Positions 41,930 to 62,166 of a stretch of 64,000 nt of DNA are shown here, piece by piece; position 1 is the stretch's first letter, and every line of letters starts with the position of its first letter. The notes beneath the pieces are model-generated. The model worked only from the letters and a program-made list of their open reading frames with translations, had not been told where the DNA came from and did no database searches. This DNA is from Nocardia ninae NBRC 108245 (lineage in GTDB: Bacteria; Actinomycetota; Actinomycetes; Mycobacteriales; Mycobacteriaceae): positions 124,001-188,000 of the forward strand of contig NZ_BJXA01000002.1 in the NCBI RefSeq assembly GCF_007990755.1, in the 5' to 3' direction. The position numbers were made by a program, and so were the translations under genes.

Positions 41930-42475
41930 ATGACAGCAGCGTCCGACAACGTCAGGCCCGCGGCCGCGGTCGACAACGGTCGTGCCGGACCACCCGACGC
42001 CGCCGAGGTGGCGCAACTGAACGACCTGCTCGATCATGTCCGAGCCAACGCACTGCGCCTGCAAGCCGACTTCGGTGTCCCGCCGAGCGTGCTGCGCATC
42101 CGCGCGGGAGAGGTCACGGTCGAGGCCGAGTGGCCGCAAACCCCCGCGCCTGATCTGGGAGTTGCTGCACACCAGAATGTTTCGAGTTCCACTGAGGGCG
42201 AAGCAGCGGTGGTGGTGGACTCGCGTTATCTCGTGCGCGCTCCTTCCGTAGGCGTGTTCTACCGGGCTCCCAAACCTGGCGCCGCGCCGTTCGTCGCCGT
42301 CGGCGACCACGTCGAGCCGCAAACTCAGGTGGCGATCGTGGAAGTCATGAAGCTGATGATCCCGGTGCACGCCGGAGTCGCCGGACGGGTGGCGGAGGTG
42401 CTGGGTCCGGAGGGTGGCCCGGTCGAGTTCGACGAGCCGTTGTTCGCCATCGAACCGGATGCGGCCACCGCCTGA
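41930..42475 (+). CDS. accB: Biotin carboxyl carrier protein of acetyl-CoA carboxylase
   Basis: About 181 residues from the ATG at 41930; an ATG at 41918 is possible. The C-terminal biotinyl domain contains EVMKLM, whose lysine (Lys141) is biotinylated, and the N-terminal part is a flexible Ala/Pro linker. It carries carboxybiotin between AccC and AccDA, both encoded downstream on the other strand, to make malonyl-CoA for the polyketide synthase. This is the first gene of the cluster. It ends in a long hairpin. Confidence 0.9.
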   Translation: MTAASDNVRPAAAVDNGRAGPPDAAEVAQLNDLLDHVRANALRLQADFGVPPSVLRIRAGEVTVEAEWPQTPAPDLGVAAHQNVSSSTEGEAAVVVDSRYLVRAPSVGVFYRAPKPGAAPFVAVGDHVEPQTQVAIVEVMKLMIPVHAGVAGRVAEVLGPEGGPVEFDEPLFAIEPDAATA

Positions 42476-42499
42476 ACGCTTCGTTCAGGCGGTGGCCGC
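42461..42499. terminator. 18-bp perfect hairpin terminator
   Basis: GCGGCCACCGCCTGAACG and CGTTCAGGCGGTGGCCGC pair perfectly around a CTT loop. The stem covers the accB stop codon and sits between convergent genes. Confidence 0.85.
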
Positions 42500-42506
42500 C
42501 GGGAGC

Positions 42507-43256
42507 TCAGGCAGGCACGATGGCGACGACGCGAGTCCAGCCCGCGCCTGCCCCGCCCACCGGTATCGGGAAACACGCGATGGTGAACCCGGTAGCGGTG
42601 GGCAGTTCTTCGAGATGTGCCAGCTTCTCCAGTTGCAGATATTCGCGTTGCCGTCCATAGATGTGGGCGGGCCACAGCGCGCGGGGATCGCGGCTACGGC
42701 GGTACTCGTCGATCATCTGCCGCATCGGCCGGTCGAGACCCCACGCGTCGATGCCGATCACCCGAATGCCTTGCTCCACCAGGAATTGCGTGCCTTCACC
42801 GCTGAGGCCCGGATAGTGGTCCAGGTAGGCCGCCGTACCCCAGAACCGGTCGGCACCGGTCCACAACAGCACGATCTCGCCGGGGGCCAGCTGGTGGTCG
42901 ATGCTGTCGAGCGCACCCGCCAGATCCGCCGGCGTGATCGCCTCGCCCGCAGGCACGGCCCGCATGTCCAGGCGAACGCCGGGACCGTAGCACCACTCGA
43001 GCGGCACCTGATCGATGCTGCGGGCCGGCTGCCCCGCACAGAGCGGACCGTAGTGCAGCGGTGCGTCCATATGAGTTCCGGTGTGCGTGGTCAGCGTGAC
43101 GGTCTCATTGGAGATCGCCATCCCGTCCGGAAAGTCCTCGGGCGCAAGGCCGAGCACGGTCGCACCGCTGCGATGATCGAGCAGATCGATCTTCACCGGC
43201 GTCGCCTCGCTCGGCGCGTCCCGGAGCACCACGCTCAGATCGATCAGGCGAGTCAT
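42507..43256 (-). CDS. Cyclase-family metal-dependent hydrolase (PF04199 type)
   Basis: 249 residues from the ATG at 43256, overlapping the preceding gene by ATGA. The family signature HTGTHMDAPLHYG (HxGTHxDxP) supplies the metal ligands. PF04199 includes kynurenine formamidases and proteins labelled polyketide cyclases in aromatic clusters. Here it is coupled to a Dabb-SRPBCC cyclase/aromatase gene in a type II PKS cluster, so a role in folding or ring closure of the poly-beta-keto chain is the natural reading. Confidence 0.87.
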   Translation of the reverse strand: MTRLIDLSVVLRDAPSEATPVKIDLLDHRSGATVLGLAPEDFPDGMAISNETVTLTTHTGTHMDAPLHYGPLCAGQPARSIDQVPLEWCYGPGVRLDMRAVPAGEAITPADLAGALDSIDHQLAPGEIVLLWTGADRFWGTAAYLDHYPGLSGEGTQFLVEQGIRVIGIDAWGLDRPMRQMIDEYRRSRDPRALWPAHIYGRQREYLQLEKLAHLEELPTATGFTIACFPIPVGGAGAGWTRVVAIVPA

Positions 43257-44095
43257 GCTGCGGTCCCGGCCAATTCCGCGGTGATCCGCTCCGCCTCCGT
43301 CTTGACCGCGGCCAGATCGGCGACGCTGTTGCGCTCGACCGCGGCCTGCAACATCTCGTCGGCCTCGGCGTAGGTGTACTTCCCGGCGACCTTGCCGTCG
43401 ACGGGTTCGCGCGCCACGAAGTCGTGGGTCAGCACCAGTTGGGTGTGGTCGTCGTCCAGCGGCAGCGCCCGCCACTCACCGCCCATGTGCCCCATCAGCG
43501 GCGCCTTCTCCAGCTGCTGGTAGGCGATGACGTGCCGGTCGGCGTCGAGGTCGCGGCGGGAGACCCACGATTGGTTCGCCCCGCTCACCTCGACGACGAG
43601 CCGGGCGATCTGATGCGTCGGCGACTCCTCGAGGATGGTGACCTGCTGGGTCGGCGGGAAGATCTTGGCGTATCCCTCGACATCGGCGAGGACGCCCCAG
43701 ACGACGTCGACCGGTGCCTCGACGGTGACTGTGTGCTCGGTGTGGTGCATGGTGGCTCCGTTCGTCGGTGTGCGGCGGGCGAGGAGATCCTCGTGGTTGG
43801 CGTAGGCGGCGTCGTAGGTGATCTTCGAGCGCCACTGGGAGATGAAGCCGTGGACGTGCGGCAGTTCGGAGAAGGTCCGCAGGTCCGCGATGGTCCGGCA
43901 GGAGAACTGCGCGATGGCGTCGGCGGTGACGCCCTGGGCGCCGTCGTCGACGGGCAGCCGAATGTGCGGGCCGTGGCCGAATTGTTCGATGAGATCCGAA
44001 CTTTCGGCGAGCGCGCGCAGTCCGGTGAAGAACTGGTCGCGGTCCTGTTCGCTGACCGAGTTCGCGAAACGGTAGATGATTGTGTGGATTATCAA
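43253..44095 (-). CDS. Dabb-SRPBCC two-domain cyclase/aromatase
   Basis: 280 residues from a TTG at 44095 (GGAGG 5 bp upstream). Residues 1-110 look like a Dabb-type dimeric alpha/beta barrel (IIHTIIYRF start, SELPHVHGFISQW). After a short linker a SRPBCC/START-type polyketide cyclase domain begins (MHHTEHTVTVEAPVDVVWGVL), with GEWRALPLDDDHTQLVLTHDF typical of TcmN-like aromatase/cyclases. The reading frame is continuous. An internal ATG at the second domain could also allow separate synthesis. Both domain types occur as separate proteins in aromatic PKS clusters. Confidence 0.8.
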   Translation of the reverse strand: MIIHTIIYRFANSVSEQDRDQFFTGLRALAESSDLIEQFGHGPHIRLPVDDGAQGVTADAIAQFSCRTIADLRTFSELPHVHGFISQWRSKITYDAAYANHEDLLARRTPTNGATMHHTEHTVTVEAPVDVVWGVLADVEGYAKIFPPTQQVTILEESPTHQIARLVVEVSGANQSWVSRRDLDADRHVIAYQQLEKAPLMGHMGGEWRALPLDDDHTQLVLTHDFVAREPVDGKVAGKYTYAEADEMLQAAVERNSVADLAAVKTEAERITAELAGTAA

Positions 44096-44155
44096 GCGAG
44101 CCTCCGCTGGTCGAGTGCTGTCACGCTCGATCGTGCGCGGGCGGGCTCGAGGTTC

Positions 44156-44363: not shown

Positions 44364-44750
44364 ATGACGACGCCAGCCGATTCCCGGTACACCTCGTCCC
44401 CGGACGCTGTCGCGGGCCGTTGCCCGCCGCGGCTGGTGGCCCCCCTGTTCGGCAACTCCTGGCTGACGGTCACGGCGTACGCGCTGCGCGAGGGGCCGAT
44501 GCGCACGGGTCAGTTGCGTCGCAGCATCGGCGGCATCAGTCAGAAGATGCTCACCCAGACGCTGCGGCGGATGGAAGACATGGCCTTGGTCGAACGCAGG
44601 CGTTATCCGGAAGCCCCGCCGCGCGTCGAATATCAGCTCACCGCGGCGGGGAAAGACCTGCTGCTTCCCATTTTCGCGTTGGGTGCGTGGGCGCACCGCC
44701 ACGGTGATGCGGTGCGCTCCGCGATGGCCGAGCATCCCGCCGGACGGTAA
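44364..44750 (+). CDS. HxlR-type winged-helix regulator
   Basis: 128 residues from the ATG at 44364. The winged helix-turn-helix reads LFGNSWLTVTAYALREGPMRTGQLRRSIGGISQKMLTQTLRRME, followed by the wing VEYQLTAAGKDLL. A cysteine lies just before the domain (GRCPPR), as in redox-sensing HxlR proteins. It is divergent from the polyketide cyclase gene across a region with two CGTACGC dyads, so it probably controls the early cluster genes. Confidence 0.88.
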   Translation: MTTPADSRYTSSPDAVAGRCPPRLVAPLFGNSWLTVTAYALREGPMRTGQLRRSIGGISQKMLTQTLRRMEDMALVERRRYPEAPPRVEYQLTAAGKDLLLPIFALGAWAHRHGDAVRSAMAEHPAGR

Positions 44751-44769: not shown

Positions 44770-45525
44770 CTAATAAGCCACCCGGTCCTCGGTCAGCAGT
44801 TCCTGCTGGATCGACTGGAGCTCCGAGGTCGGCCGCACACCCAATTCCGCGTCGAGTACCTGCCACAGATCCCGATACGCCGCCAGCGCCTCCGCCCGGC
44901 GCCCGCATTTGTGCAGCACCTTTATCAATTGGGCGTGCAGATTTTCGTTGAGCGGGTTTTCGGCCACCAGTAACCGAAGTTGCGGAATAAGTCCTCGGTA
45001 ATTACCGGTGCGCTGTTTGAGTTCGATATCGAGTTCTAGCGTCGTGAGTCGTACTTCTTTCAGATAGGTGACGTAGGCGTCGAGTACCTGACCCTTCGGA
45101 ATACCGACCAAGAACGGCCCGCGCCATAATTTGCGGGTCACGTCCAAATGATCGATCACCGATTCCAGATCACCGAGTGCGTACGCTTTGGTGGCCTTGT
45201 CGACGTGCGCGATGTATGCCCGCACGTCGACCGACTCGTCGGCCACCTCGATCGCGTACCCGGACGGCCTGGTGACCAGGATGTCCTTGTCGCCGGACAG
45301 CGCCGCGAACATCTTGCGGGCGTGGTAGACGTAGGTTTGCAGGGTGGTGAGCGCGCTGCGGGGCATGTCCTCGCCCCAGAGTTCCTCGATCAAGGAATCC
45401 ACGCTCACCGTCTCGCCGTTCTGAATCAATAACAAGCCGAGTAGTTGGCTTATTTTCGATTGTGTCAACAGGATCGGCCCTTCGTCGGCGACGATTTCGA
45501 ACTGGCCGAGCAGCTTGAACCTCAT
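44770..45525 (-). CDS. SARP-family pathway-specific activator
   Basis: 251 residues from the ATG at 45525. The N-terminal OmpR-like winged helix (about 1-92) and the bacterial transcriptional activation domain (about 95-245) match SARPs such as ActII-ORF4 and RedD. SARPs activate polyketide genes by binding heptamer direct repeats spaced 11 bp. Two such repeats occur in this cluster (51506-51523 and 57238-57255). The protein is of the small SARP type without an NB-ARC domain. Confidence 0.92.
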   Translation of the reverse strand: MRFKLLGQFEIVADEGPILLTQSKISQLLGLLLIQNGETVSVDSLIEELWGEDMPRSALTTLQTYVYHARKMFAALSGDKDILVTRPSGYAIEVADESVDVRAYIAHVDKATKAYALGDLESVIDHLDVTRKLWRGPFLVGIPKGQVLDAYVTYLKEVRLTTLELDIELKQRTGNYRGLIPQLRLLVAENPLNENLHAQLIKVLHKCGRRAEALAAYRDLWQVLDAELGVRPTSELQSIQQELLTEDRVAY

Positions 45526-45854: not shown

Positions 45855-46781
45855 TCAACGCAAACCGTGCCGCAACGCCGCAATCTGGTCGCGTACCATG
45901 CGTTGCGACACGGCGGCATGCGCGAGTCCGATCGACGCGTGGAACGTGCCGAGATAATGCACGATCTCGGTTTTCACGCCGGCCCGAATCAAGCGGTGCG
46001 CGAACGAAATTCCCTCGTCGCGCAGCGGGTCGTACTCGCAGACCCCGACGAACGCGGGCGGCAATCCGGAAATGTCCACGGCCCGCGCCGGTGCCGCGTA
46101 CTCCGACGGCGGGCCAGCGCCCAGGTAGTGCCGCCAGCACAGGGTGAGCGCGGTGCGGTCGAGCATCGGCGTGTCCACGAAGGACCGCGCGGAGACGGTG
46201 GCGAGGCGGTCGTCGAGCTGCGGAAACAGCAGGTACAGGAACGCGATTCGGGGGCCGTGCCGGTCCCGTGCGAGCAGCGCGACCCCCGCGGCCAGCCCGC
46301 CGCCCGCGCTGAAGCCGCCGACACCGATCCGGTGTGGTTCCACTCCTAGTTCCACTGCCCGGTCCGCGGTCCATTCCAGGGCGGCGTAACAGTCGTGCAG
46401 GCCGGCCGGGAACGGATGCTCCGGCGCGAGCCGGTACTCGGGGGACACCACGACCGCGCCGACTTGGTCGGCGATCCGCGACGCGAAGGTCTGCGCGGTA
46501 TCCAGGTCTCCGGTCACGAAGCCACCCCAGTGCGGAAATATCAAGGCAGGCAGAGGTTCCGGCCGATCGACCGGGCGATAGATCCGAACGGTCACCGGTC
46601 CGGCGCCGGGTGGTCCTGGTATCGGCCGGTCCACGATCGTCACCCGGGACGCGGCCTCGTAGGCGGGCTGCCGAGCCATCACTGCGCGCAGGGCGGCGCG
46701 GGCGGCCACCGGATCCGAATAGTCGAGCGGTCGCAGCCGCGGCACGAACGGTGCCAGCTCCGGGTCGAAATCGTAAGTCAC
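45855..46781 (-). CDS. HSL-family alpha/beta hydrolase/esterase
   Basis: 308 residues from the GTG at 46781 (GGGAG 7 bp upstream). The hormone-sensitive-lipase fold is clear: PHWGGF is in the place of the HGGG oxyanion loop, followed by SPEYRLAPEHPFPAGLHD and GGFSAGGGLA with the nucleophile serine; GTFHASIG carries the catalytic histidine. Esterases of this type are rare tailoring enzymes in aromatic PKS clusters; a deacylation, lactone opening or export-related role is possible. The gene overlaps the lipocalin-like gene by GTGA and is the last in the operon from 51449. Confidence 0.86.
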   Translation of the reverse strand: MTYDFDPELAPFVPRLRPLDYSDPVAARAALRAVMARQPAYEAASRVTIVDRPIPGPPGAGPVTVRIYRPVDRPEPLPALIFPHWGGFVTGDLDTAQTFASRIADQVGAVVVSPEYRLAPEHPFPAGLHDCYAALEWTADRAVELGVEPHRIGVGGFSAGGGLAAGVALLARDRHGPRIAFLYLLFPQLDDRLATVSARSFVDTPMLDRTALTLCWRHYLGAGPPSEYAAPARAVDISGLPPAFVGVCEYDPLRDEGISFAHRLIRAGVKTEIVHYLGTFHASIGLAHAAVSQRMVRDQIAALRHGLR

Positions 46782-47176
46782 CGGCCCACTCCCGTCATTC
46801 GTCGCCACCGCAGCAGCCGCCGCCCGGCCCGGCCGGACGCCGCGGGCGCCACCGCATGCAGGGTCAGCCGATCGTCGGCCAGCTCGATGTCGCGGTGTTG
46901 CCGGGTCCCGACCAGATAGTTGTGCGAGCTGACCAGTACCCGGTGGATCACCTGCCTGCCGGACAGCTCCCAGGTGCCCGCGTAGCCCATGAAGCCGTGG
47001 CCGGTGCCCGGCGAGCGCATCATGCTCACCGACATGTGACCGTCGGCGGCGTAGAAGAGCAGGCCGCACGGGTCGGCGCCGAGCGGACCCTCGTGCACGC
47101 CGCCGTCGTCGTCGATACTGTGATAGGCCGCCAGCCACCAGGTGCCGATGAGATCGTCCGCGTGCACCCCGCTCAC
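46778..47176 (-). CDS. Lipocalin-like domain protein
   Basis: 132 residues from the GTG at 47176, with GTGA overlaps at both ends, so it is tightly coupled to accC and the esterase gene. The N-terminus LIGTWWLAAYHSI and the pattern of alternating strands match the Lipocalin_5 (DUF) type, a small beta-barrel that binds a hydrophobic ligand. No signal peptide is seen. A role in binding or cyclising the polyketide is possible, as similar proteins occur in other type II PKS clusters. Confidence 0.72.
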   Translation of the reverse strand: MSGVHADDLIGTWWLAAYHSIDDDGGVHEGPLGADPCGLLFYAADGHMSVSMMRSPGTGHGFMGYAGTWELSGRQVIHRVLVSSHNYLVGTRQHRDIELADDRLTLHAVAPAASGRAGRRLLRWRRMTGVGR

Positions 47177-48537
47177 CCGCCGACCGAGGACGACGTCATC
47201 AGGATTTCGTCGACCAGCGCGGTGGTGTGCGTAGCCGACCGGAAGCGCTCGTGGTCGAGCACCTCGGCGAGGAACGCCGCGGTGGTACGCAACTGCGGCC
47301 CCGACATCCGGAATTCATCCAGCGCGCAACGCATTCGGGCGATCGCGCCCTCGCGGTGCGGCGCCCACACGATCAACTTGGCGAGCAGGGAGTCGTAACT
47401 GGCCGGCACCACATACCCCGGATAGACGTGGGTATCGACGCGCACGAAAGGCCCACCGGGCGGCACGAATTCGGTGATGGCGCCCGGCGCCGGGGCGAAA
47501 CCGTGCGCGGGATCCTCGGCGTTGATCCGGCATTCGATGGCGCAGCCGGTGGGCACCACATCGGCCTGGGACAGGCCGAGCACGCCGCCCGAGGCGATGT
47601 CGAGCTGGGCGGCGACCAGATCGATGCCGGTCACCATCTCGGTCACCGGATGCTCCACTTGGATCCGGCAGTTGACCTCCATGAAGTAGTAGTTGCCGTC
47701 GGGCGCGAGCAGGAATTCGAAGGTGCCCGCACCGACATAGCCCGCGGCCAGCGCCCCGTCCACCGCGGCGCGGCCCATCCGCTCCGCCAACCCGGTCGGC
47801 AGCTCGGGCGCCGGGCTTTCCTCGATCAGCTTCTGATGTCTGCGCTGCACCGTGCAGTCGCGCTCGCCGAGGTACACGCCGTTGCCATAGCTGTCGCAGA
47901 GCACCTGCACCTCAACGTGCCGGGTCTGCGGCAGATATCGCTCCACGTAGACGCGGCCGTCCCCGAACAAGGCCTGGGCGACCGCCTGCGTGCGATGGAA
48001 AGCCTCGTCGAAGTGCTCGCCGTGCTCCACCACGGTCATGCCGCGCCCGCCACCGCCGGCGGACGCCTTGATGATGACGGGAAACCCGATGCGCCCGGCC
48101 AACTGCCGGGCCGACGCGTGATCCAGCGGCTCGATACTTCCCGGCAGCAAGGGAATTCCCACATCCGTCATCAGCGCCCGCGCGGAGGACTTGTCGCCGA
48201 GCTTGTCCATCACCGACGCGGGCGGGCCGATCAAGGTGATGCCGAGCGACTCGCAGGCCTCGGCGAAATCCGCTGACTCGGACAGGAATCCGTAGCCGGG
48301 ATGGATCGCGTCGGCCCCGGTCTGCTCGGCCGCCTGCAGCACGGCGGCGGCATTGAGATAGCTGCGGCCCGGGGGAGCGGGCCCGATCTGGACCGCCTCG
48401 TCGGCGAGACGGACCACCGATGATTCGCGGTCTGCGGTCGAATGCACCGCGACCGTTGCGATGCCGAGCTCGCGGCAGGCTCGGGCGACCCGCACCGCGA
48501 TCTCGCCACGATTGGCGATCAGTACCTTGGTGAACAT
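47173..48537 (-). CDS. accC: Biotin carboxylase subunit of acetyl-CoA carboxylase
   Basis: 454 residues, full length for AccC. The N-terminus KVLIANRGEIAVRVARA, the ATP-grasp region with KASAGGGGRGM, and EVNCRIQVEHPVTEMVTG are diagnostic. It carboxylates the biotin on AccB using ATP and bicarbonate. It lies 3 bp downstream of the accDA stop in an operon with the monooxygenase gene and serves malonyl-CoA supply. Confidence 0.95.
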   Translation of the reverse strand: MFTKVLIANRGEIAVRVARACRELGIATVAVHSTADRESSVVRLADEAVQIGPAPPGRSYLNAAAVLQAAEQTGADAIHPGYGFLSESADFAEACESLGITLIGPPASVMDKLGDKSSARALMTDVGIPLLPGSIEPLDHASARQLAGRIGFPVIIKASAGGGGRGMTVVEHGEHFDEAFHRTQAVAQALFGDGRVYVERYLPQTRHVEVQVLCDSYGNGVYLGERDCTVQRRHQKLIEESPAPELPTGLAERMGRAAVDGALAAGYVGAGTFEFLLAPDGNYYFMEVNCRIQVEHPVTEMVTGIDLVAAQLDIASGGVLGLSQADVVPTGCAIECRINAEDPAHGFAPAPGAITEFVPPGGPFVRVDTHVYPGYVVPASYDSLLAKLIVWAPHREGAIARMRCALDEFRMSGPQLRTTAAFLAEVLDHERFRSATHTTALVDEILMTSSSVGG

Positions 48538-48540: not shown

Positions 48541-50286
48541 CTACCTCCGCCGAGCCCAGTCTTCGATGTCGGCCAGCTCCGTCTCGACCGCGACCGAGGC
48601 GCCGAAGCCGCGGAAGCGGGCCCGTCGTGCCAGCCGCAGCTGTGTCGGTGCCAGCCCGCCCAACTCGTGCAGCGCGGAGCTCAGTGCGGAACGGAGCGTC
48701 TCGGCGGCTTGGACCGGGTCCGCGCCGACACCACCGTCCGGCTCCGGCAGCACGCCGTCGACCACGCCGAGCCGTAACAGTTCCCGCGCATTGAGGCGCA
48801 ACGCCTGTGCCGCTGCGGTGACGGCTGTGTCGTCCTTCCAGACGATGGCCGCGCAACCCTCGGGGCTGATCACCGAGTACACGGCGTCGGAGAACATCAG
48901 CACGCGGTTCGCGACCGCCAAGGCCAGCGCGCCGCCGCTGCCGCCCTCGCCGATGATGACGGCCACCACCGGCACCGACAGCGTGGCCATCAGCCGCAGG
49001 TTCTCCGCGATGGCCACCGCCTGGCCGCGCTCCTCGGCGTCGGCGCCGGGGTAGGCGCCCGGCGTATCGATGAGGGTCACGATCGGCACGCCCAGCTTGT
49101 CGGCCATGCGCATCAGCCGTGCCGCCTTGCGATAGCCGGCCGGGGAGGCCATGCCGAAGTTGCGCGCGGCCAATTCTGTTGGAGTATGGCCTTTCTGGGT
49201 GGCCAGCACCATGACCGGCAGCCCGTCCAGGCGTGCCGTTCCACCGATCAAGGCCGGGCACTCGCCCGAGATCCGGTCCCCGTGCAGCTCGCGGAAGCCT
49301 TCGAAGGCATACCCGAGATAGTCCAGCGCGGTAGGCCGATCGAGTGAGCGTGCCTTCCGCACCTGGTCCCACGGATAGGCGTGGGGCAGCTGATCAGGGT
49401 CGGTGACTATGGCGGACGAGCGCTCGGGGCGCCGGGCAGGGATCTGCGGTCTGTCACCGGAGCCGTTCAGTCGCAACAGGTTTCCCAGCTCGGCCCGCAA
49501 TTGTGCCCTGGGCACGATCATGTCGATGAAGCCGCGCTCGAGCAGGAACTCGGCGGTCTGGAAATCCGCCGGAAGCTGTTGCCGGATGGTCTGTTCGATG
49601 ACCCGCCGTCCGGCGAACCCGAGGCGGGCACCGGGTTCGGCGATGATGACATCCCCGAGGGTCGCGAACGAGGCTGCCACACCGCCGAAGGTCGGATCCG
49701 CGATCAGCGAGACGCACAGTACCCCCGCCAGGTCGAGGTCGCTCAGAGCCGCGCTCGTCTTCGCCATCTGCATCAGCGACAGCGCGCCCTCCTGCATCCG
49801 TGCGCCACCCGAGGACGTGACCAGCAGCAGCGGAATGCGTTCGGCCAGCGCGGTTTCGATCGCCAGGGTGATCAACTCACCGACGGCGGTGCCGAGGCTG
49901 CCGCCGAGAAACCGGAAGTCCATCACCGCCGCGATCACCGGTTGGTCGTCGATGGTCAGGCGCGCGCAGAGCACCGCCTCCGCCATCCCGGTCTGCGCCT
50001 GGGCCCGGGACAACCGCTGCCAGTAGGGCACCGTGTCGACGAAGCCGAGCGGATCGGTATTGGTCATCTCGAACGGCAGCACCGTGAATCGGCCGTCATC
50101 GGCCAGCTGCGTGAGCCGCTCGCGGGCGGTGACGGGCAGATGCGCGGCACACTCGGGGCACACATGGAGGTTGCGGCGCAACCGCCTGCCGTAGATCGGT
50201 GTCTTGCAGGCGCGGCACAGCACCCACTCGACGTCGGCCGCCGGATCGGGTTCGGTGACAGCGGGGTTCAGGACAGTTTCGGTCAT
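48541..50286 (-). CDS. Fused acetyl-CoA carboxylase carboxyltransferase (beta-alpha, AccDA)
   Basis: 581 residues. The AccD-like half (1-~285) has the zinc ribbon CRAC...CPEC near residues 24-45 and a [11 protein letters not shown] carboxyltransferase loop. The AccA-like half (~300-581) has [16 protein letters not shown] and [14 protein letters not shown]. Together they transfer the carboxyl group to acetyl-CoA. Fusion of both subunits in one chain with the zinc ribbon retained is typical of secondary ACCs in natural-product clusters. The start overlaps the monooxygenase gene by ATGA. Confidence 0.92.
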
Positions 50287-53508: not shown

Positions 53509-55053
53509 CTAGTCGGGCAAGCGGATCGAAAAAGAATGCCGGAACACGTCATTGGGGTCCCACGTGCACTTGGCTCGCTGCAACCGGTCGTAGTTGGCAC
53601 CGAACATGAAGGCCGGCCAGGCGACGCCGGACTGGTTGTACCGGTCATCGAAGATATCCGGATCCGGCGAGTTGATCTGGCAGCCTTCGTACCGATCACC
53701 GGGCACCGGATATCCGCCCGTCGACGCGAACGTCTGACCGTAGATGTCCCGGACCCAGTTGATGTGCATGTCGTCCTCGGCGGCCTCGGTCCAATAGCCC
53801 TGGAACCAGGCGAAGAAGGCCGAATTGCGTTGGAACACCAGCGTTTCCGTCGGACTGAACGAGTTGACCTTGCCGCCGGCGATCGCGCCGAGCTGCAGCA
53901 CCGCCGCGCCGGGTGGCGGGGCCTGGTAGTCGGAGCGGGTCATGTTCCGGTAGATCGCCGCGATCTGCTCGTCGGTGAAGTTCTCCTTGAAGTAGGCCGC
54001 TTTGACCGTGCTGCGCAATGTCGCGTTGGTCATCACCGTCGGATTGCTCGTATCGACCGTCTCGGTGGAGGCCCACCACCCCAGCCTGCGGCGGGGGAAC
54101 GGGCCGGTGATGCCGGTGCCCGCGGTGACGGCGGCGAGGTAGTCGTCGAGCAGCTTCTCCGCGCCGGGCACAGTCGCGTCGACCTGGGTGAGCATCCCGA
54201 TGCCGCCGCCGGACACATGCCCGACGAAGATCATGCCCGCCACCTCCCGGCCGGGGGAGTCCGGATGCTTGTTGTCCACATGCCATTGCCCGTGGTTGCG
54301 GAGCAGATTCGCGAACTTCTCCTCGTCCAGTACCGCCCACGGGATGAATTGCGTGTGGATGAGAACTTCCGTCGGCGGTTGGGGCAGTTGCATCTCCGGA
54401 TCGTCACCGAAGGCCTCGCGCGACCGGAACCAGAACCGGGTGATCACGCCGAAGCTGCCACCGCCGCCCCCCGAACACGCCCACCAGAGATCGTTCAGCG
54501 CGCCGGTGTCGTCGCGGCAGGCGACCACCGCCCTGGCGCAGCCGTCGGCGTCGACCACGACGATCTCGACCGCCTCGATCAGATCACTGACATTGCCGTG
54601 CAAGCGGGACAGCAGCCCGTGGCCGCCGCCGGTCGCGTGACCGGCGATACCGGTCGACGGACATACGCCGCCCGGCAGCGTGACACCCCAACCGCGAAAC
54701 AGCGTTTCATAGATTTCCATGAGCAGCGCGCCACTCTCGATCGCGAAAGCGCAGCGGTCCCGGTCGTAATAAATGGCGTTCATCTGCGACATGTCGAGAA
54801 TGATCTCGGCCTCGGCGTGGTAAACGAGATCACCATACGAATGGCCGCCGCCGCGAATGGATATTCGTTTGCCGGAGTCGACCGCCTCCTGTACGGCCCG
54901 CACGACCTGCTCGGTGTTACCGACCAGCCAGACCGATTCCGGTGCGGCGACGAATCGCCTGTTCCAGCCGACGACCATTTGTGGATAACGTTTACTGTCG
55001 GGCGTGATGACCACCGGCCCGAATTCCGTTGCAGTCGACGTGATTTCCTGCAC
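53509..55053 (-). CDS. BBE-type bicovalent FAD-linked oxidase
   Basis: 514 residues from the GTG at 55053, which has GGGAGG 5 bp upstream; an ATG at 55077 is in frame but has no site. The FAD domain has RGGGHSYGD with His71 and GGVCPSTGIAGHATGGGHG with Cys131, the two residues that bind FAD covalently in AknOx and related enzymes. The C-terminal BBE motif includes the DRYNQSGVAWPAF region. Such enzymes oxidise alcohols or sugars of aromatic polyketides, or close rings. It is divergent from the SnoaL-like gene. Confidence 0.9.
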   Translation of the reverse strand: MQEITSTATEFGPVVITPDSKRYPQMVVGWNRRFVAAPESVWLVGNTEQVVRAVQEAVDSGKRISIRGGGHSYGDLVYHAEAEIILDMSQMNAIYYDRDRCAFAIESGALLMEIYETLFRGWGVTLPGGVCPSTGIAGHATGGGHGLLSRLHGNVSDLIEAVEIVVVDADGCARAVVACRDDTGALNDLWWACSGGGGGSFGVITRFWFRSREAFGDDPEMQLPQPPTEVLIHTQFIPWAVLDEEKFANLLRNHGQWHVDNKHPDSPGREVAGMIFVGHVSGGGIGMLTQVDATVPGAEKLLDDYLAAVTAGTGITGPFPRRRLGWWASTETVDTSNPTVMTNATLRSTVKAAYFKENFTDEQIAAIYRNMTRSDYQAPPPGAAVLQLGAIAGGKVNSFSPTETLVFQRNSAFFAWFQGYWTEAAEDDMHINWVRDIYGQTFASTGGYPVPGDRYEGCQINSPDPDIFDDRYNQSGVAWPAFMFGANYDRLQRAKCTWDPNDVFRHSFSIRLPD

Positions 55054-55284: not shown

Positions 55285-55710
55285 ATGCAATCGAACAGCA
55301 CGACCGTGGTGGGGGAAGACGCGTTGGCGCCGCAGAAGACGCTGGTCAGCGATTTCATCCGGCTGTTCTACAACGAGAAGAACTTCGACCGCGCCGCCGA
55401 ACTGCTCAGACCGGATTTCGTCAACCATCATCCGGGCGTGGGAGTGGGGCGGCAGCGCACCGTGGATACCTTCCGCAAGGAGGTCGGTGATCCGTTTCCG
55501 GAGTTCACCTTGACGATTCGGCGGATGGTGGCCGAGGACGACCACGTATGGACGCACGGCCTGGTGCAGCTCGAACCGGACGGCCCCGTCGCGATCGTGG
55601 TCGACATCTGGCGCATCGAGGACGGTTTGCTGGCCGAGAAATGGGACGTGCATCAGGGGGTGCCGGAGGGCTCCAGCGTCGCGGAGATGTTGTCGGACTG
55701 GCCGTCATGA
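55285..55710 (+). CDS. SnoaL-like cyclase-family protein
   Basis: 141 residues from the ATG at 55285 (AGGGAGG upstream). The sequence fits the SnoaL/NTF2-like alpha+beta cone: FIRLFYNEKNFDRAAELLRPDFVNHHPG, then the terminal strand with VVDIWRIEDGLLAEKWDVHQ. SnoaL proteins close the last ring of anthracyclines by an aldol reaction; others hydroxylate or only bind. The DIWRIEDGLLAEKWDV segment has an aspartate in the position of the SnoaL catalytic Asp. It overlaps the convergent luxR gene by 6 bp. Confidence 0.86.
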   Translation: MQSNSTTVVGEDALAPQKTLVSDFIRLFYNEKNFDRAAELLRPDFVNHHPGVGVGRQRTVDTFRKEVGDPFPEFTLTIRRMVAEDDHVWTHGLVQLEPDGPVAIVVDIWRIEDGLLAEKWDVHQGVPEGSSVAEMLSDWPS

Positions 55711-57009
55711 TCTAGGCAACGCCGCGGTCGGAAAGCCCAGCGACCGGGCGATGGCCGCGGCCTCACCGCGCGAACCCGCGTTGAGCTTCTTCAGGATCCG
55801 CGCCACGTGGAATTTCACCGTGTGCTCGCTGATGTGCAGGTCGTCGGCGATCGCGCGATTGCGGTGCCCGAGCACGAGGTGGCGCAGCACGTCGACTTCG
55901 CGCGGATTCAGCGTGCTGCGCAGGTCGGAGCGCGGTATCTCGCGAACCAGCAGCGGCAGCCGGATGGTGACGGTGGCGCCCCAGCCGGGCACCGCGTCGA
56001 GCACGAGCGACCCACCGAGCACGGCCACTCGATCGGTGACCCGATGCGGGGTGAACGACTCGACAGTGAGCGTGCCCGGCCCGTCGTCGCGGATCGTCAT
56101 CAGCAATTCGGTGTCGGCCAGGTCCCAGCACACCCGGATTCGGCTGATCCCGTCCTGCGCGAGCATCGACAGGACACAGCCGCGCGCGACCGTCCGCGCG
56201 ATCTCGGTGACGTGCGAGGGAATGTGGCGCTGACCGCCGTCGAAGGCCGAATATTCGAGGGTGACGGCGCCGTAGTGCGAGAGCATGCCGAGCATGTCCG
56301 ACAGCCGGGTGTACGCGCGGTCGGCTCGCTCCTCGCCGAGGATGTCGGCGACCCGGTCGACGTCGTCGACAGAGCGGTGCCTGATGATCGCGGAGACCGC
56401 GATGTCGACGGCCGTCCGGCGCGCCGTCGCGTCGTCGAGATCCCGGGCCCGCAGCGCCGCCAGCAGTGTGGACAGGGTGGCGGCGTGCTCGTCGGCGAGG
56501 TCGGCGATCGCGCGGACCCGATCGCCGCCGGCGAGTAGCCCAGAGGATTCGACGGGGGCGACGGTCTGGATCAAGTCGCGAATGCGTGCCGTGGTCAGGT
56601 CCCACAGCTGCTGCACAGTCTCGGCCGTCGCCGCAGGCGGCTCGGCGTCGCCGTCGGTGACGACCGCGAGCAACGCGCCCGCGGAGTTGGGCGGGGACGC
56701 CGCGAAGGCGAGCACGTCGCGCGGCGCGCCGGCCAGCACCGCGCGCCCGAACCTCGGCGTGCCGACATCGACTTCCCGTGCCAGCGCCGACATTTCGGTC
56801 GTGCTGACGCACTCGGTGAGCTCGGCGTCGCCCGTCGCCCACAGCGGCGATTTCGGGCAGTCGCCGGTGAGCATGATCAGCGCGCGATGGTCGATCAGCT
56901 CCAGGAGAATCTTCGACAGGGTGGCCAGAATTCCGCTCAGTGGCGAACGCATCAATTCGTTCGCCGATGCCAAGGCCCTTGCCGAATTTCCCCAAGCCCC
57001 GCCTTCCAT
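55705..57009 (-). CDS. HATPase-LuxR fusion regulator
   Basis: 434 residues from the ATG at 57009; the frame continues into the inverted-repeat element and is not coding there. Residues ~25-190 are a GAF-like/helical sensor region, ~195-260 helical, ~265-352 resemble a histidine-kinase ATPase domain (RDDGPG at 307-312, [27 protein letters not shown] at ~327-353), and 362-425 form a LuxR-type helix-turn-helix. A kinase-like ATPase and a DNA-binding domain in one chain is unusual. It may control the KS operon, from which it is divergent. A GTG at 57036 is an alternative start. Confidence 0.85.
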
Positions 57010-57067
57010 ATGCCCGAGAATACGTCGCTCGGCCACGGGTGTCGCCGGTATCACCGAGCCGCGACCC

Positions 57068-57229
57068 AGGGCCTGTCGCAAAGTCCGGCCGGATGCCTCC
57101 GGGGGCTGGATCGCCGCCTGGCCGCGTTGTCGTCGTCGCCGATACAAACCCGGTATCGGCAACTCCTCCGCCTTGCCAGGCGACGATCCAGCCCCCGGAT
57201 GCATCCGGCCGGACTTTGCGACAGGCCCT
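57068..57229. mobile_element. MITE-like element with 55-bp terminal inverted repeats
   Basis: The two ends, 57068-57122 and 57175-57229, are inverted copies over 55 bp with 53 identities; outermost sequence AGGGCCTGTCGCAAAG. The 52-bp centre is unrelated in sequence. No open frame with transposase features is present. The bases just inside and outside the ends read CCAG and CTAG, a possible imperfect target duplication. Confidence 0.65.
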
Positions 57230-57237
57230 AGCTGTGC

Positions 57238-57299: not shown

Positions 57300-57350
57300 G
57301 TGTTGAGCAAGATGACCATGATCACCGAGCCCGTTGGTTCCGTGCGATGA
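57300..57350 (+). CDS. 16-residue leader ORF coupled to KS-alpha
   Basis: A GTG at 57300 with GGAG 7 bp upstream opens a short frame that ends in TGA at 57348-57350, overlapping the KS ATG at 57347 as ATGA. The KS gene itself has no ribosome-binding site, so translation is probably coupled through this leader. The peptide shows no recognisable motif. Confidence 0.45.
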
Positions 57351-58615
57351 CCCCCCGCGTGGTGATTACCGGAATAGGGGTCCGTGCCCCTGGCGGCAAC
57401 GGCATCAAGGAATTCTGGAACCTGCTGACCGAAGGTCGCACGGCGACCCGGCGAATTTCGTTCTTCGACCCGTCGCCCTACCGCTCCCAGGTCGCCGCCG
57501 AGGCGGATTTCGACCCGGTGTGGGAAGGCTTGAGCCAGCGGGAGATCCGCCGGATGGACCGGGCCACCCAGTTCGCGACGGTGTGTGCGCGTGACGCGGT
57601 GGCGGCCAGTGGGCTGAACTTCGAGTCGATCGACCCGCAACGGGTCGGCGTCACCCTCGGCAGCGCGGTGGCCGCGGCGACCAGCCTGGAGCGCGAGTAT
57701 CTCGTGCTGTCCGACTCCGGCCGGAACTGGCTGGTCGACTACGAGTGGCTGTCCCCGCACATGTTCGACTACCTGGCGCCCAGCGTCATGCCCGCGGAGG
57801 TGGCCTGGACGGTCGGGGCGGAGGGGCCGGTGTCGTTGGTCTCCAACGGATGCACCTCCGGGCTGGACTCGGTGGGTCATGCTTGCCAGTTGATCCGCGA
57901 GGGCAGCGCCGACGTGATGCTCGCCGGCGCCACGGACACCCCGATCACGCCGATCGTCGTGGCGTGCTTCGACGCGATCAAGGCGACGACGACCAACAAC
58001 GACGATCCCGAGCACGCGTCGCGGCCATTCGACCGCTCCCGCAACGGTTTCGTGCTGGCGGAGGGGGCGGCGATGTTCGTGCTGGAGCGTTACGAGCACG
58101 CCCGGCGACGCGGCGCGCATATCTATGCCGAGATCAGCGGGTACGCCAGCCGGTGCAACGCCTACCACATGACCGGCCTGAAGACCGATGGTCGTGAGAT
58201 GGCCGAGGCCATCCGCGCCGCCTTGGACGAGGCGCAAATCGACGGCACCGCCATCGATTACATCAACGCGCACGGCTCCGGCACCAAACAGAACGACCGG
58301 CACGAGACGGCGGCCGTGAAACGCGCGCTGGGCGAGCACGCTTACCGGACCCCGGTCAGCTCGATCAAGTCGATGGTCGGGCATTCGCTGGGTGCGATCG
58401 GTTCGGTGGAGATCGCCGCGTCCGCGCTCGCGCTCGAGTACGGGGTGGTGCCGCCCACGGCGAACCTGCACGAGGCCGATCCCGAATGCGACCTCGACTA
58501 CGTGCCGCGCGTCGCGCGCGAACTCGACGTGCGGACCGTGCTCACGGTGGGCAGCGGGTTCGGCGGATTCCAGAGCGCGATGGTGCTGCGCCGCCCGGAA
58601 GGAACGACTCGATGA
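57347..58615 (+). CDS. Type II PKS ketosynthase alpha (KS-alpha)
   Basis: 422 residues. The catalytic residues fall at the canonical positions: Cys169 in [10 protein letters not shown], His309 in NAHGSGT, Lys341 and His346 in [10 protein letters not shown]. It condenses malonyl-ACP units into the poly-beta-keto chain with the chain length factor and ACP. The residue two before Cys is Asn in place of the common Thr. The stop overlaps the KS-beta start by ATGA. The start ATG has no ribosome-binding site, see the leader at 57300. Confidence 0.97.
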
Positions 58616-59904
58616 GCGTCGGCAACCCCGTGGTGACGGGCATCGGCGTGGTCGCGCCGAACGGCCTTGGGCTCGAACAGTTCTGGGACGCGACATTGCG
58701 CGGCATCAGCGGGATCGATCGGCTGACCCGGTTCGACGTTACGCGCTATCCGGTGCGACTGGCGGGCGAGATCACCGGCTTCGACGCCGCGGATCACCTG
58801 CCCGACCGGTTGCTGCCGCAAACCGACGTCTCGACCCGGCTGGCGCTCGTCGCGGCCGACTGGGCGCTCGCGGACGCCGAGCTGAAACCCGGCGAGCTGG
58901 TCGACTACGACATGGGCGTGGTCACCGCGAACGCTTGCGGCGGTTTCGAATTCACCCACCGTGAGTTCCAGAAGCTGTGGTCGCAGGGCCCGCAGACGGT
59001 GAGCGTGTACGAGTCGTTCGCGTGGTTCTACGCGGTCAATACCGGGCAGATCTCGATCCGCAACGGTATGCGCGGCGCGAGCAGCGCCTTGGTCGCGGAG
59101 CAGGCCGGCGGGCTCGACGCCATCGGGCACGCACGGCGGACCATCCGGCGCGGGACGCCGTGCGTGGTGACCGGCGGCGTCGACTCGGCGCTCGATCCGT
59201 GGGGCTGGGTTTCCCAGATCGCAGGCGGGCGGCTCAGCGACGCGACCGATCCAGCACGTGCGTACCTGCCATTCGATTGCGCGGCACAGGGTTTCGTGCC
59301 GGGGGAGGGCGGAGCGATCCTGATGCTGGAGGATCCCGATGCGGCCAGGGCCCGTGGCGCGAACCACGCGTACGGCGAGATCGCCGGGTACGCCTCGACT
59401 TTCGATCCGCCGCCCGGTTCGCCGCGGCCGCCCGGCCTGCAACGCGCGGCCGAACTGGCGCTCGCCGACGCGGGTATCACGCCCGCCGAGGTGGACGTCG
59501 TTTTCGCCGACGCGGTAGCTCTTCCGGATGCCGACCGGGCCGAGGCAACGGCCATCGGCAACATCTTCGGCCCACGGGGAGTGCCGGTGACGGCGCCGAA
59601 AACGCTGACCGGACGGCTGTATTCGGGCGGTGGGCCGCTCGATGTCGCCGCGGCGCTGCTCGCCATCCGGGACGGCGTGCTCCCGCATACGACGGGCACG
59701 CACGACGTGCCCGACGACTACCAGCTCGATCTGGTGCGGCAGGTGCCGCGACCGGCTCGGGTCTCGACCGCCCTGGTACTCGCCCGCGGCCTGTGGGGAT
59801 TCAACTCGGCCGTGGTCGTACGGCAGGCGAGCGGCTGGCCCGCCCGTCCCGCCGTGTCCGAACACCATGCACAATCAGAGGAGACATCATGCGCAAGATC
59901 ATGA
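58612..59904 (+). CDS. Type II PKS chain length factor (KS-beta)
   Basis: 430 residues from the ATG at 58612. It has the ketosynthase fold but the active-site cysteine is replaced by Gln164 in [10 protein letters not shown], the hallmark of KS-beta/CLF, whose Gln allows malonyl decarboxylation for priming and which sets chain length. The 3' end overlaps the ACP start by 16 nt. Chain length cannot be predicted with confidence by eye. Confidence 0.96.
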
Positions 59905-60149
59905 CCATCGACGACCTGCGACGCATCCTGATCGCCAGCGCGGGCGAACCGGACCGGCCCGTGTCCGACACCGAATTCGCGGACACCCTCTTCGAAGAGC
60001 TCGGCTACGAATCGCTGGCGCTGATGGAGTCCGCGGCCCGGATCGAGCGGGAGTTCGGGGTCGGCGTGCCCGACGATCGGCTCATCGACCTGCGCACGCC
60101 GGGTGAGTTCATCGCACTCGTCAACGAGGCCGCCTCGGACGCGGCGTAG
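59889..60149 (+). CDS. Type II PKS acyl carrier protein
   Basis: 86 residues from the ATG at 59889, with AGAGGAG 5 bp upstream. The attachment serine is Ser42 in LGYESLALME, the PKS-type ACP motif in place of DSL. It overlaps the CLF gene end and completes the minimal PKS. The two-residue acidic N-terminal helix region is typical. Confidence 0.95.
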   Translation: MRKIMTIDDLRRILIASAGEPDRPVSDTEFADTLFEELGYESLALMESAARIEREFGVGVPDDRLIDLRTPGEFIALVNEAASDAA

Positions 60150-60161
60150 GCGGCAGTCTTC

Positions 60162-60644
60162 ATGCCTGCCACCGCCGATACGGCCGTGCTCTTCCGCGAT
60201 GTGATGGCGCGCTATCCGAGTGGCGTCACGATCGTCACCACGACCGACGGGCCCCGGCCGGTCGGCTTCACGGCCAGCTCGTTCTGTTCGGTCTCCGCAC
60301 AGCCACCGCTCGTGCTCGTCTGCCTGGCGCGGAAAGCGAACTGCTACCCCGTCTTCGCGCACGCCGACCGGTTCGCGGTGAGCATCCTGGCCACCGGCCA
60401 GGGTGCCCTCGCGAGCCGGTTCGCGAGCAAGAACGGCGACAAGTTCGGTGCGGGCGGTTTCGTGCCGACCGCGCGCGGCGGGCTGGTGGTCGCCGACTGC
60501 GTCGCGGCGCTGGAGTGCACGGTCCACGATCGGCGACCGGCCGGTGATCACCTGATCATGGTCGGTGCGGTGGAACAGCTTTGCGCGCCGAGCGAGCTAC
60601 CGCCTGCCGTCTACTGCGACCGCAGGTTCGCGGACTTGGTGTAG
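60162..60644 (+). CDS. NAD(P)H:flavin reductase (HpaC/ActVB type)
   Basis: 160 residues, ATG at 60162, 12 bp after the ACP stop. The protein matches the FMN-reductase domain: YPSGVTIVTTTD, GFTASSFCSVSAQPPLVLVCL, and the loop with FASKNGDKF. Such reductases supply reduced flavin to two-component monooxygenases. The probable partner is the acyl-CoA-dehydrogenase-fold oxygenase at 50283, even though it is encoded 9 kb away on the other strand. Confidence 0.9.
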   Translation: MPATADTAVLFRDVMARYPSGVTIVTTTDGPRPVGFTASSFCSVSAQPPLVLVCLARKANCYPVFAHADRFAVSILATGQGALASRFASKNGDKFGAGGFVPTARGGLVVADCVAALECTVHDRRPAGDHLIMVGAVEQLCAPSELPPAVYCDRRFADLV

Positions 60645-60684
60645 CACGGGCGGTCGTTCAGCTGCGTTGCCCGGTAGATCGTTC

Positions 60685-60701
60685 TACTCTCAAAGAGAGT
60701 A
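60685..60701. promoter_or_regulatory. Candidate operator upstream of P450
   Basis: TACTCTC-AAA-GAGAGTA is an exact 7-3-7 dyad located 33 bp upstream of the P450 start, which suggests separate control of the P450-ferredoxin pair. Confidence 0.5.
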
Positions 60702-60733
60702 CGCAAGAGCATCTTACGAGCTCGAGGGGAACG

Positions 60734-61954
60734 ATGTCCGACACTGTTGCGCCGCCCCGCACCGATCAAGCTCCGGCCTATCCGAGCGACCGGACCTGTC
60801 CCTATCAGCTACCCGAGCAGTATTCCCGGCTCCGGGACGGCGACGACTCGCTGCGCCGGGTGACCCTCTTCGACGGTCGCCCGGCCTGGGTGGTGACCAA
60901 GCACGAGACCGCCCGGGTGCTGCTCGCCGACCCGCGGCTGTCCTCGGATCGGTCGCATCCGAACTTTCCCGCGGTGTCGCCCCGCTTCCGGATGTTCCGG
61001 AACGGCCCGCGGGTGTTCATCGCCCTCGACCCGCCCGAACACACCGTCAAGCGGCGGATGCTGATCAGCGAGTTCACCGTGAAGCGGATCAAGGGGATGC
61101 GCGCGGACATCGAACGCATCGTGCACGGCTGCCTCGATGACCTGCTCGCCGCGGGACCGCCCGCCGATCTGGTCGGCCGGTTCGCGCTGCCGGTGCCGTC
61201 GCTGGTGATCTGCCGACTGCTCGGGGTGCCGTACGCGGACCACGAACTGTTCCAGGACGCGAGCAGGCGGATCGTGCAGGGGGCCACCGCGGCGGAGGCG
61301 ATCGGTGCGCGGGCGGAAGTCGAGGCCTACCTCGACGGGCTGATCACCAGGTTGCAGAACCAACCGGGTCCCGGGCTGCTGTCCGCGCTGGCCGCCGATC
61401 AACTGGCGCACGGCGGTACCGATCGGGGCGAGCTGGTCGCGACCGCGATGTTGCTGCTCGTCGCGGGCCACGAGACGACGGCATCGATGATCGCGCTGTC
61501 GGTGATAACCCTGCTGGCCCACCCCGATCAGTACGCCGCCTTGCGCGCCGACCCCAGCCTCGTTCCGGGTGCGGTCGAGGAACTGCTGCGCTACCTGGCC
61601 ATCGCCGACGTGGGCGGCGGTCGATTCGCGACGGCCGACATCGAGATCGACGGCCACCTGATCAAGGCGGGCGACGGCGTGCTCGTCAGCAACGCCATCG
61701 CCAACCGCGACGGCGCGGTCTTCGCCGAGCCGGACACCTTCGACGTGCGCCGCTCGGCCCGCCACCACCTCTCGTTCGGCTACGGGGTACACCAGTGCCT
61801 GGGCCAGAACCTGGCCCGGCTGGAACTCGAGATAGCCCTCGCGGCGCTGTTCGAACGCGTTCCGACGTTGCGCCTGGCCGTGCCCATGGAACAACTGACC
61901 CTGCGACCCGGCTCGACAATCCAAGGCGTCAACGAACTTCCGGTCACCTGGTGA
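60734..61954 (+). CDS. Cytochrome P450
   Basis: 406 residues from the ATG at 60734 (GAGGGGA 3 bp upstream). I-helix AGHETT (244-249), the ExxR pair Glu283/Arg286, and the haem loop FGYGVHQCLGQ with Cys355 are all present; the sequence is of the CYP105-like soluble type. It should oxidise the polyketide scaffold. The ferredoxin gene 26 bp downstream is its likely electron donor. Confidence 0.96.
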   Translation: MSDTVAPPRTDQAPAYPSDRTCPYQLPEQYSRLRDGDDSLRRVTLFDGRPAWVVTKHETARVLLADPRLSSDRSHPNFPAVSPRFRMFRNGPRVFIALDPPEHTVKRRMLISEFTVKRIKGMRADIERIVHGCLDDLLAAGPPADLVGRFALPVPSLVICRLLGVPYADHELFQDASRRIVQGATAAEAIGARAEVEAYLDGLITRLQNQPGPGLLSALAADQLAHGGTDRGELVATAMLLLVAGHETTASMIALSVITLLAHPDQYAALRADPSLVPGAVEELLRYLAIADVGGGRFATADIEIDGHLIKAGDGVLVSNAIANRDGAVFAEPDTFDVRRSARHHLSFGYGVHQCLGQNLARLELEIALAALFERVPTLRLAVPMEQLTLRPGSTIQGVNELPVTW

Positions 61955-61980
61955 CCGATGCAGGCCCGAAAGGAGACCCC

Positions 61981-62166
61981 ATGCGGATAACCGCCGACCG
62001 AACCGTCTGCGTCGGCGCAGGCCTGTGCGCACTCACCGCCCCCGCCGTCTTCGACCAAGGTGACGACGACGGCCTCGTCGAAGTGCTCGACCCCGCCGCC
62101 GACGACCCCGCGGTCCGCGAGGCGGTCGACCTCTGCCCATCCGGTGCTCTAGCGTTGACGGAGTAG
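61981..62166 (+). CDS. 3Fe-4S ferredoxin
   Basis: 61 residues with a strong AAGGAG ribosome-binding site. Cluster ligands are Cys10, Cys16 and Cys52 (CPSGAL); position 13 is Ala, where 4Fe-4S proteins have a fourth cysteine, so a 3Fe-4S cluster is expected. It is the usual partner of the P450 upstream. Confidence 0.94.
   Translation: MRITADRTVCVGAGLCALTAPAVFDQGDDDGLVEVLDPAADDPAVREAVDLCPSGALALTE

Follow-up and report, generated by a model that had tools for sequence, protein, structure and literature searches.

A type II polyketide cluster of Nocardia ninae that lacks a ketoreductase and carries a ZhuI-type cyclase and a type I Baeyer–Villiger monooxygenase

The DNA analyzed here, a 64-kb window from the 9.7-Mb genome of Nocardia ninae NBRC 108245, carries a type II polyketide synthase (PKS) gene cluster. 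Twenty genes, identified by codon-model gene calling and Pfam, span positions 41930 to 62166, from the start of the gene for the biotin carboxyl carrier protein (BCCP) to the end of a ferredoxin gene, and the product of every one scores above the cut-off of one or more Pfam families (Table 1). These limits agree to the base with those given by an original prediction for this DNA. The genes for a ketosynthase (KS-alpha) with a Cys/His/His active site, a chain length factor (CLF), and an acyl carrier protein (ACP) with its serine site are contiguous at 57347 to 60149, which identifies the locus as a type II PKS. We consider it probable that this cluster, which has no ketoreductase (KR), directs the synthesis of an unreduced C16 (possibly C18) aromatic with a core of the TMAC (flavokermesic acid) type, probably a three-ring, pigment-like molecule that would then be oxidized and cut.

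The gene content claimed by the original prediction is borne out by Pfam for KS-alpha, CLF, ACP, three components of an acetyl-CoA carboxylase (ACC), three cyclase-type proteins, five redox enzymes, a SARP activator, and an HxlR regulator. The regulator described as a HATPase-LuxR protein retains its LuxR (GerE) assignment, but its HATPase portion receives no Pfam call and was recognized from motifs by eye only. An alpha/beta hydrolase and a Lipocalin_5 protein were absent from the earlier list, and both are conserved in relatives.

The claimed absence of a KR also holds. A profile for short-chain dehydrogenases/reductases (SDRs) finds nothing at E ≤ 1e-5 in the 64-kb window or in the next 38 kb downstream, and the sole match in the 39 kb fetched downstream falls within the final kilobase, some 40 kb away from the cluster. 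Among 80 related loci, 53 score above 290 bits with the same profile; this sample extends 10 kb to each side only, such that its counts are lower bounds. A KR just outside the cluster, which the original prediction had named as a finding that would overturn it, is not present within 38 kb to the right, and no KR of the actinorhodin (act) type is found genome-wide. The query for this search was the act-type KR of Streptomyces netropsis, itself matching the actinorhodin KR at 1.4e-107; it returned three matches at E ≤ 1e-30, which are 33 to 40% identical and all located on other contigs.

The missing KR is accounted for by the type of first-ring cyclase, since ZhuI-type enzymes belong to a KR-independent class that acts at C7-C12. 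In the ZhuI-type half of the fused cyclase, 106 of 163 aligned residues (65%) are identical to ZhuI, and R66 (Arg181 of the fusion), H109, and D146 are all kept. We take H109 and D146 to be the catalytic positions, whereas the role of R66 comes from the literature. According to a 2025 review (PMC12664062), the R66A variant of ZhuI loses all cyclization, and the combination of no KR with a monodomain C7-C12 cyclase (ZhuI) constitutes one of five aromatase classes. Unreduced chemistry is indicated independently by a predicted ZhuI-type cyclase with intact catalytic residues.

The remainder of the fusion is an N-terminal domain of about 105 amino acids that appears Dabb/TcmI-like by eye only; in S. 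echinoruber, the two halves are encoded in separate adjoining frames. The neighboring PF04199 gene overlaps the fusion gene by 4 bases, and its product may serve as a ZhuJ-like second-ring cyclase. Copies of this protein that are 73 to 77% identical occur in nine clusters of other genera, six of which belong to the nine-cluster family described below. At E ≤ 1e-40, the ZhuI half or the fusion is encoded by 3 of 148 Nocardia genomes, and a sample of 394 genomes taken from the class likewise yields 3; both counts include the genome of the window. The third Nocardia carrier (G042) has the ZhuI part only, in a different cluster. The same fused cyclase and a PF04199 protein also occur in S. himastatinicus (L067/L138-L139) and S. 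rhizoryzae (L069/L144-L145), which represent another ZhuI-class family. Besides different tailoring genes, their clusters encode a further ZhuI-like protein and contain NmrA-like genes in duplicate (by eye), and their genomes lack an act-type KR.

The association between the ZhuI-type cyclase and the lack of a KR extends to other organisms. Five of the 80 loci contain a ZhuI match that is at least 60% identical (four whole fusions and the truncated L054, which holds the ZhuI half), and none has an SDR gene in the fetched stretch. No act-type KR is found in six ZhuI-bearing genomes, which are those of the window, N. suismassiliense, cf386, S. fumigatiscleroticus, S. himastatinicus, and S. rhizoryzae (labeled G000, G079, G148, G153, G155, G157, and G158, where G079 and G148 are both N. 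suismassiliense with identical coordinates). The best match among them is 41% identical, and two have no match at E ≤ 1e-30. A KR supplied in trans, which would yield a product reduced at C9, therefore appears extremely improbable. The N. ninae genome does encode other SDRs (the best 40% identical to the act-type KR), and KRs that act across clusters are known, as with OxtJ in the var pathway (PMC12386333). Against this reading stand a cyclase of the KR-independent class (PMC12664062) and two Nocardia and four Streptomyces genomes that offer nothing above 41%.

The closest solved structures to both KS-alpha and CLF are those of the actinorhodin KS/CLF, and the CLF is 71% identical to its actinorhodin counterpart. 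Residues F109, T112, and F116 of the actinorhodin CLF are presumably the gates that set chain length, and the corresponding positions in the cluster CLF are likewise F, T, and F. A C16 chain is likely on the basis of this resemblance, with C18 left as the alternative. The actinorhodin minimal PKS combined with ZhuI and ZhuJ yields TMAC (PMC340942), and flavokermesic acid, which is the same compound, was increased by ZhuI and ZhuJ when made from an unreduced octaketide (PMC6110711). On this precedent, we predict that the first product is an anthraquinone of the TMAC type, and the cluster resembles a naturally occurring form of the engineered combination.

We propose the following pathway, both in its steps and in their order. 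The dedicated carboxylase would supply malonyl-CoA, from which the actinorhodin-like KS/CLF/ACP would build an acetate-primed octaketide that retains every ketone. The ZhuI-type half of the fusion would close and aromatize the first ring at C7-C12, the PF04199 protein, in the role of ZhuJ, would close the second, and closure of a third would give an anthrone of the TMAC/flavokermesic acid type. A monooxygenase with the acyl-CoA dehydrogenase (ACAD) fold and a flavin reductase, and also the P450 with its ferredoxin, could then perform hydroxylation or quinone formation. Subsequently, the type I Baeyer–Villiger monooxygenase (BVMO) would insert oxygen next to a ring ketone and the alpha/beta hydrolase would open the resulting lactone, whereupon the berberine-bridge-type (BBE) oxidase, lipocalin, and SnoaL-like proteins may carry out final steps or a rearrangement. 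The SARP, LuxR, and HxlR proteins would exert control. In evolutionary terms, this may be an unreduced counterpart of related pathways that employ a KR and a didomain aromatase.

The originally claimed BVMO, P450, and BBE hold as family assignments. Type I BVMOs carry the fingerprint FxGxxxHxxxW(P/D), and the cluster enzyme contains FAGPAFHSATWD together with the Rossmann motif GAGFSG, although its second Rossmann motif is unmatched by the pattern used. This fingerprint and the similarity to phenylacetone and cyclohexanone monooxygenases classify the protein as a type I BVMO with a predicted ketone-to-ester activity. The ACAD-fold monooxygenase matches the NCBIfam model HsaA at 6.5e-53, which is below the family cut-off, and the flavin reductase is its presumed partner. 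The alpha/beta hydrolase is a candidate lactone hydrolase acting after the BVMO, and the P450 is one that we take to be a CYP105. Neither a methyltransferase nor a halogenase is found by Pfam among the 21 genes at 41930 to 63414.

Table 1. Genes of the N. ninae cluster, with positions in the window and the leading evidence for each assignment
Feature	Position	Strand	Evidence
BCCP, ACC biotin carrier	41930..42475	+	Pfam Biotin_lipoyl 1e-17; EVMKL biotin site
PF04199 cyclase, proposed second-ring (putatively ZhuJ-like)	42507..43256	-	Pfam Cyclase 1.7e-35
Fused cyclase, ~105-aa N-terminal domain + ZhuI-type SRPBCC aromatase/cyclase	43253..44095	-	3tfz (ZhuI) 4e-59
HxlR-type regulator, alternative start 44436	44364..44750	+	Pfam HxlR 7.5e-24
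SARP activator	44770..45525	-	Pfam BTAD 7.5e-38, Trans_reg_C 1.2e-9
Alpha/beta hydrolase, hormone-sensitive-lipase-like	45855..46808	-	Pfam Abhydrolase_3 9.7e-59
Lipocalin_5 protein	46778..47176	-	Pfam 1.2e-21
Biotin carboxylase AccC	47173..48537	-	Pfam Biotin_carb_N/C, CPSase_L_D2
Fused carboxyltransferase AccD-AccA with zinc ribbon	48541..50286	-	Pfam ACCA 1.7e-103, Carboxyl_trans, Zn_ribbon_ACC
ACAD-fold flavin monooxygenase, putative two-component type	50283..51449	-	XiaF 9e-39, 3-HSA hydroxylase 6.9e-38
Type I BVMO, ~130-aa N-terminal extension	51582..53486	+	Phenylacetone/cyclohexanone monooxygenases ~1e-59; FAGPAFHSATWD
BBE FAD oxidase	53509..54978	-	TamL 5.1e-140, AknOx 9.7e-123
SnoaL-like protein, possible cyclase	55285..55710	+	Pfam SnoaL_2 3.2e-14, SnoaL 1.3e-10
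LuxR-type regulator, alternative start 56952	55705..57204	-	Pfam GerE 2.7e-17
KS-alpha	57347..58615	+	Actinorhodin KS 3e-221; GCTSG/HGSGT/GHSLG
CLF (KS-beta)	58612..59904	+	Actinorhodin CLF 1.6e-185, 71% identity
ACP	59889..60149	+	Pfam PP-binding 1.7e-11; GYESL serine site
Flavin reductase, putative partner of ACAD-fold monooxygenase	60162..60644	+	Pfam Flavin_Reduct 3e-39
Cytochrome P450	60734..61954	+	P450-SU1 8.3e-196
Small ferredoxin	61981..62166	+	Pfam Fer4_19 1.2e-10

Several points weigh against the proposed pathway. Pfam does not recognize the N-terminal domain of the fused cyclase at E ≤ 0.01, and among solved structures the PF04199 protein is closest to kynurenine formamidase and isatin hydrolase. 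At its cluster edge, the ZhuI-bearing strain cf386 carries a different kind of SDR, which is also present in four related clusters that do carry a KR, and a 32% identical SDR lies farther out, neither being act-type. RslO9, which was long called a BVMO, performs a different rearrangement (PMC12903851), although it represents another flavoenzyme class. We rejected an RslO9-type identity for the cluster enzyme, because RslO9 is a group A flavoprotein and the enzyme encoded here carries the type I fingerprint. The F/T/F pattern of the CLF is found in 76 of the 80 related loci. It therefore marks an act-like CLF and cannot separate C16 from C18, which weakens the gatekeeper residues as proof of a C16 chain. 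Finally, conversion of the acetate-primed octaketide by ZhuI and ZhuJ was incomplete, and alkyl-primed chains were handled better (PMC340942).

The last two points bear on an alternative in which a C18 (nonaketide) chain or a non-acetate starter gives a longer or alkyl-substituted unreduced anthraquinone in place of TMAC. The performance of ZhuI and ZhuJ, which is best on alkyl-primed chains, is in keeping with this option, as is the occurrence of act-like CLF residues in so many loci, mostly without an assigned product. We nevertheless regard it as unlikely, given that Pfam identifies none of the components that usually serve alkyl priming (KSIII, acyltransferase, and second ACP) among the 21 genes at this locus, and that the CLF so closely resembles that of actinorhodin. 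A stand-alone ACP is encoded 11 kb to the left, in a different cassette.

The original prediction had set this cluster apart by its possession of its own ACC. All three parts of the enzyme are present, but AccC and AccDA occur at 60% identity or more in 21 of the 80 related loci, and 16 of these 21 also have a strong SDR gene. We therefore rejected the carboxylase as a distinguishing feature; it is an ordinary supply module.

Nor does the cluster stand alone: at least nine clusters, this one included, form a family that shares one tailoring core. The originally proposed unreduced aromatic polyketide with Baeyer–Villiger, P450, and BBE tailoring is consistent with the lack of a KR, the ZhuI-type cyclase, and the enzyme families, yet it must now be viewed as one member of this larger set. 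All nine clusters encode KS, CLF, ACP, BVMO, the ACAD-fold monooxygenase, the alpha/beta hydrolase, lipocalin, SARP, LuxR, and SnoaL-like proteins. The PF04199 cyclase is present in eight (not in A. iranica), as is the flavin reductase (not in S. lilacinus), whereas the BBE is found in six and the carboxylase in four.

The family includes two types of folding module. Five KR-type clusters (S. netropsis, Streptomyces sp. MspMP-M5, A. spheciospongiae, S. lilacinus, and A. iranica) carry a KR that is 73 to 100% identical to the S. netropsis copy, a didomain aromatase, and a second SnoaL-like protein. Their KRs were seen in wide stretches reaching beyond the 10-kb flanks, that of S. netropsis by its match to actinorhodin and the others by 73 to 84% identity, the highest value belonging to MspMP-M5. 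Four ZhuI-type clusters (the window, N. suismassiliense, cf386, and S. fumigatiscleroticus) all have the ZhuI fusion and lack an act-type KR, the didomain aromatase, and the second SnoaL-like protein. The two Nocardia clusters are without the methyltransferase, quinone oxidoreductase, DUF6081, and WrbA-like genes of most other members, and additionally carry P450, ferredoxin, and HxlR genes. In S. lilacinus, a 39% identical P450 is encoded beside the LuxR gene, and a 51% identical P450 with a ferredoxin lies farther out.

A BVMO tree places the nine family clusters apart from three outer clusters (100/99). With six concatenated genes, the ZhuI-type clusters split between two positions in the tree, and a forced single group is rejected (p-AU 0.0153). 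A single group is not rejected at 0.05 by KS plus CLF (0.0559), by three tailoring genes (0.109), or by the ZhuI fusion (0.151). The group tested was defined by gene content, yet the single-gene trees had been seen before the test. The two module types suggest that the folding module was exchanged within the family, and the tree results are suggestive of two independent exchanges. More tentatively, we can envision an exchange in nature, probably occurring twice, in which a KR and didomain aromatase gave way to the fused ZhuI cyclase. A reduced octaketide pathway might in this manner have become an unreduced one with its tailoring (type I BVMO, hydroxylase, hydrolase, and lipocalin) kept. Members of the family could then form a matched pair, reduced/9-hydroxy, of a new ring-cleaved anthraquinone scaffold, of which the window would hold a streamlined, carboxylase-bearing version. 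We find this broader scenario possible but doubtful.

Matches to the BVMO at E ≤ 1e-150 occur in 35 of the 394 class genomes; in two besides that of the window they reach at least 70% identity, and no new family members emerged. Type II loci of two other Nocardia species encode a 59 to 62% identical BVMO, in N. amamiensis (L025) beside AccC and AccDA genes and in N. transvalensis (L046/L159) beside a KR that is 76% identical to the S. netropsis KR. A CLF match at E ≤ 1e-60 is present in 75 of the 148 Nocardia genomes, so type II polyketide clusters are a common feature of the genus.

The original prediction could not assign the cluster to a known product, and the open-access literature, among the matches listed, likewise provides no named product for the gene set or its closest relatives. 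For this reason, we judge it quite unlikely that the product is an already known compound, even though related clusters reside in named, cultured strains. We also rejected a naphthocyclinone-type pathway. S. humi is reported as nearest to ncnA (PMC10697411), and locus L078 of S. humi is presumed to be the corresponding locus. Its CLF is 66% identical to the window CLF over the longer alignment and 71% over at most 93% of it.

The borders of the cluster are sensible given the flanking genes. To the left are GGDEF, M14 peptidase, LysR, and DNA polymerase III alpha genes, and to the right a secretory-lipase-like gene is followed by genes for a GAF histidine kinase and a response regulator. N. suismassiliense, the source of the closest named CLF (96%), has all 20 genes in an unchanged order, with 90 to 99% protein identity. 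The lipase-like gene (62524 to 63414) has no match in the stretch that holds them and was rejected as a cluster member. The kinase and regulator pair, just right of the window (L009:429-2901), resembles DosS/DosR dormancy proteins by eye; the genes that come next look nitroreductase-like and universal-stress-like, likewise by eye. Another biosynthetic-looking cluster lies about 20 to 40 kb downstream (L010:1-20000), with genes for a B12-binding-type protein, an asparagine-synthase-like protein, a P450, and an SDR, again by eye. Within the window, a compact acyl-tailoring cassette at 26831 to 33005 looks like a separate small lipid or natural-product cluster and encodes an AMP-ligase, a cyclopropane-synthase-like methyltransferase, a stand-alone ACP (82 amino acids), a PF03405 fatty-acid desaturase, an acyl-CoA oxidase/dehydrogenase, and a PhyH dioxygenase.

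If the proposed pathway is correct, then a combination assembled by hand, in which an act-type octaketide synthase and ZhuI-type folding lead to flavokermesic acid, the precursor skeleton of carmine, already exists in nature. In the cluster, this folding would be followed by a type I Baeyer–Villiger enzyme of a different class from RslO9. Furthermore, the KR-type and ZhuI-type sister clusters would be a natural experiment on how tailoring enzymes fare after a folding-module swap, which bears on combinatorial biosynthesis.

KR-less clusters of the fasamycin/formicamycin type use methyltransferase and halogenase tailoring on a longer, pentacyclic-type chain, whereas the N. ninae cluster has neither kind of enzyme. 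The R1128 (zhu) cluster shares the ZhuI-type cyclase, but the cluster described here has no KSIII/priming module, its KS/CLF are act-like, and its oxidative tailoring is extensive. Actinorhodin and other benzoisochromanequinone clusters provide the closest solved KS/CLF and share the logic of an ACAD-fold monooxygenase with a flavin reductase, whose counterpart is presumably ActVA-5/ActVB. They differ in that the N. ninae cluster lacks the act-type KR and didomain aromatase and has a type I BVMO, a lipocalin, and a BBE. The engineered actinorhodin minimal PKS with ZhuI and ZhuJ agrees in its act-type KS/CLF, its ZhuI first-ring cyclase, its separate second-ring cyclase, and its lack of a KR. 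The N. ninae cluster differs in being natural, in having ZhuI fused to an extra N-terminal domain and a PF04199 protein as the putatively ZhuJ-like second cyclase, and in adding the BVMO, ACAD-fold monooxygenase, BBE, and P450. Among its own relatives, the clusters of cf386 and S. fumigatiscleroticus share the core, ZhuI fusion, PF04199 protein, and lack of an act-type KR, whereas ACC, BBE, and P450 were not found in them and a quinone oxidoreductase, a DUF6081 protein, and a WrbA-like protein are present. The KR-type clusters, such as that of S. netropsis, share the ten core genes, with a KR, a didomain aromatase, and a second SnoaL-like protein in place of the ZhuI fusion.

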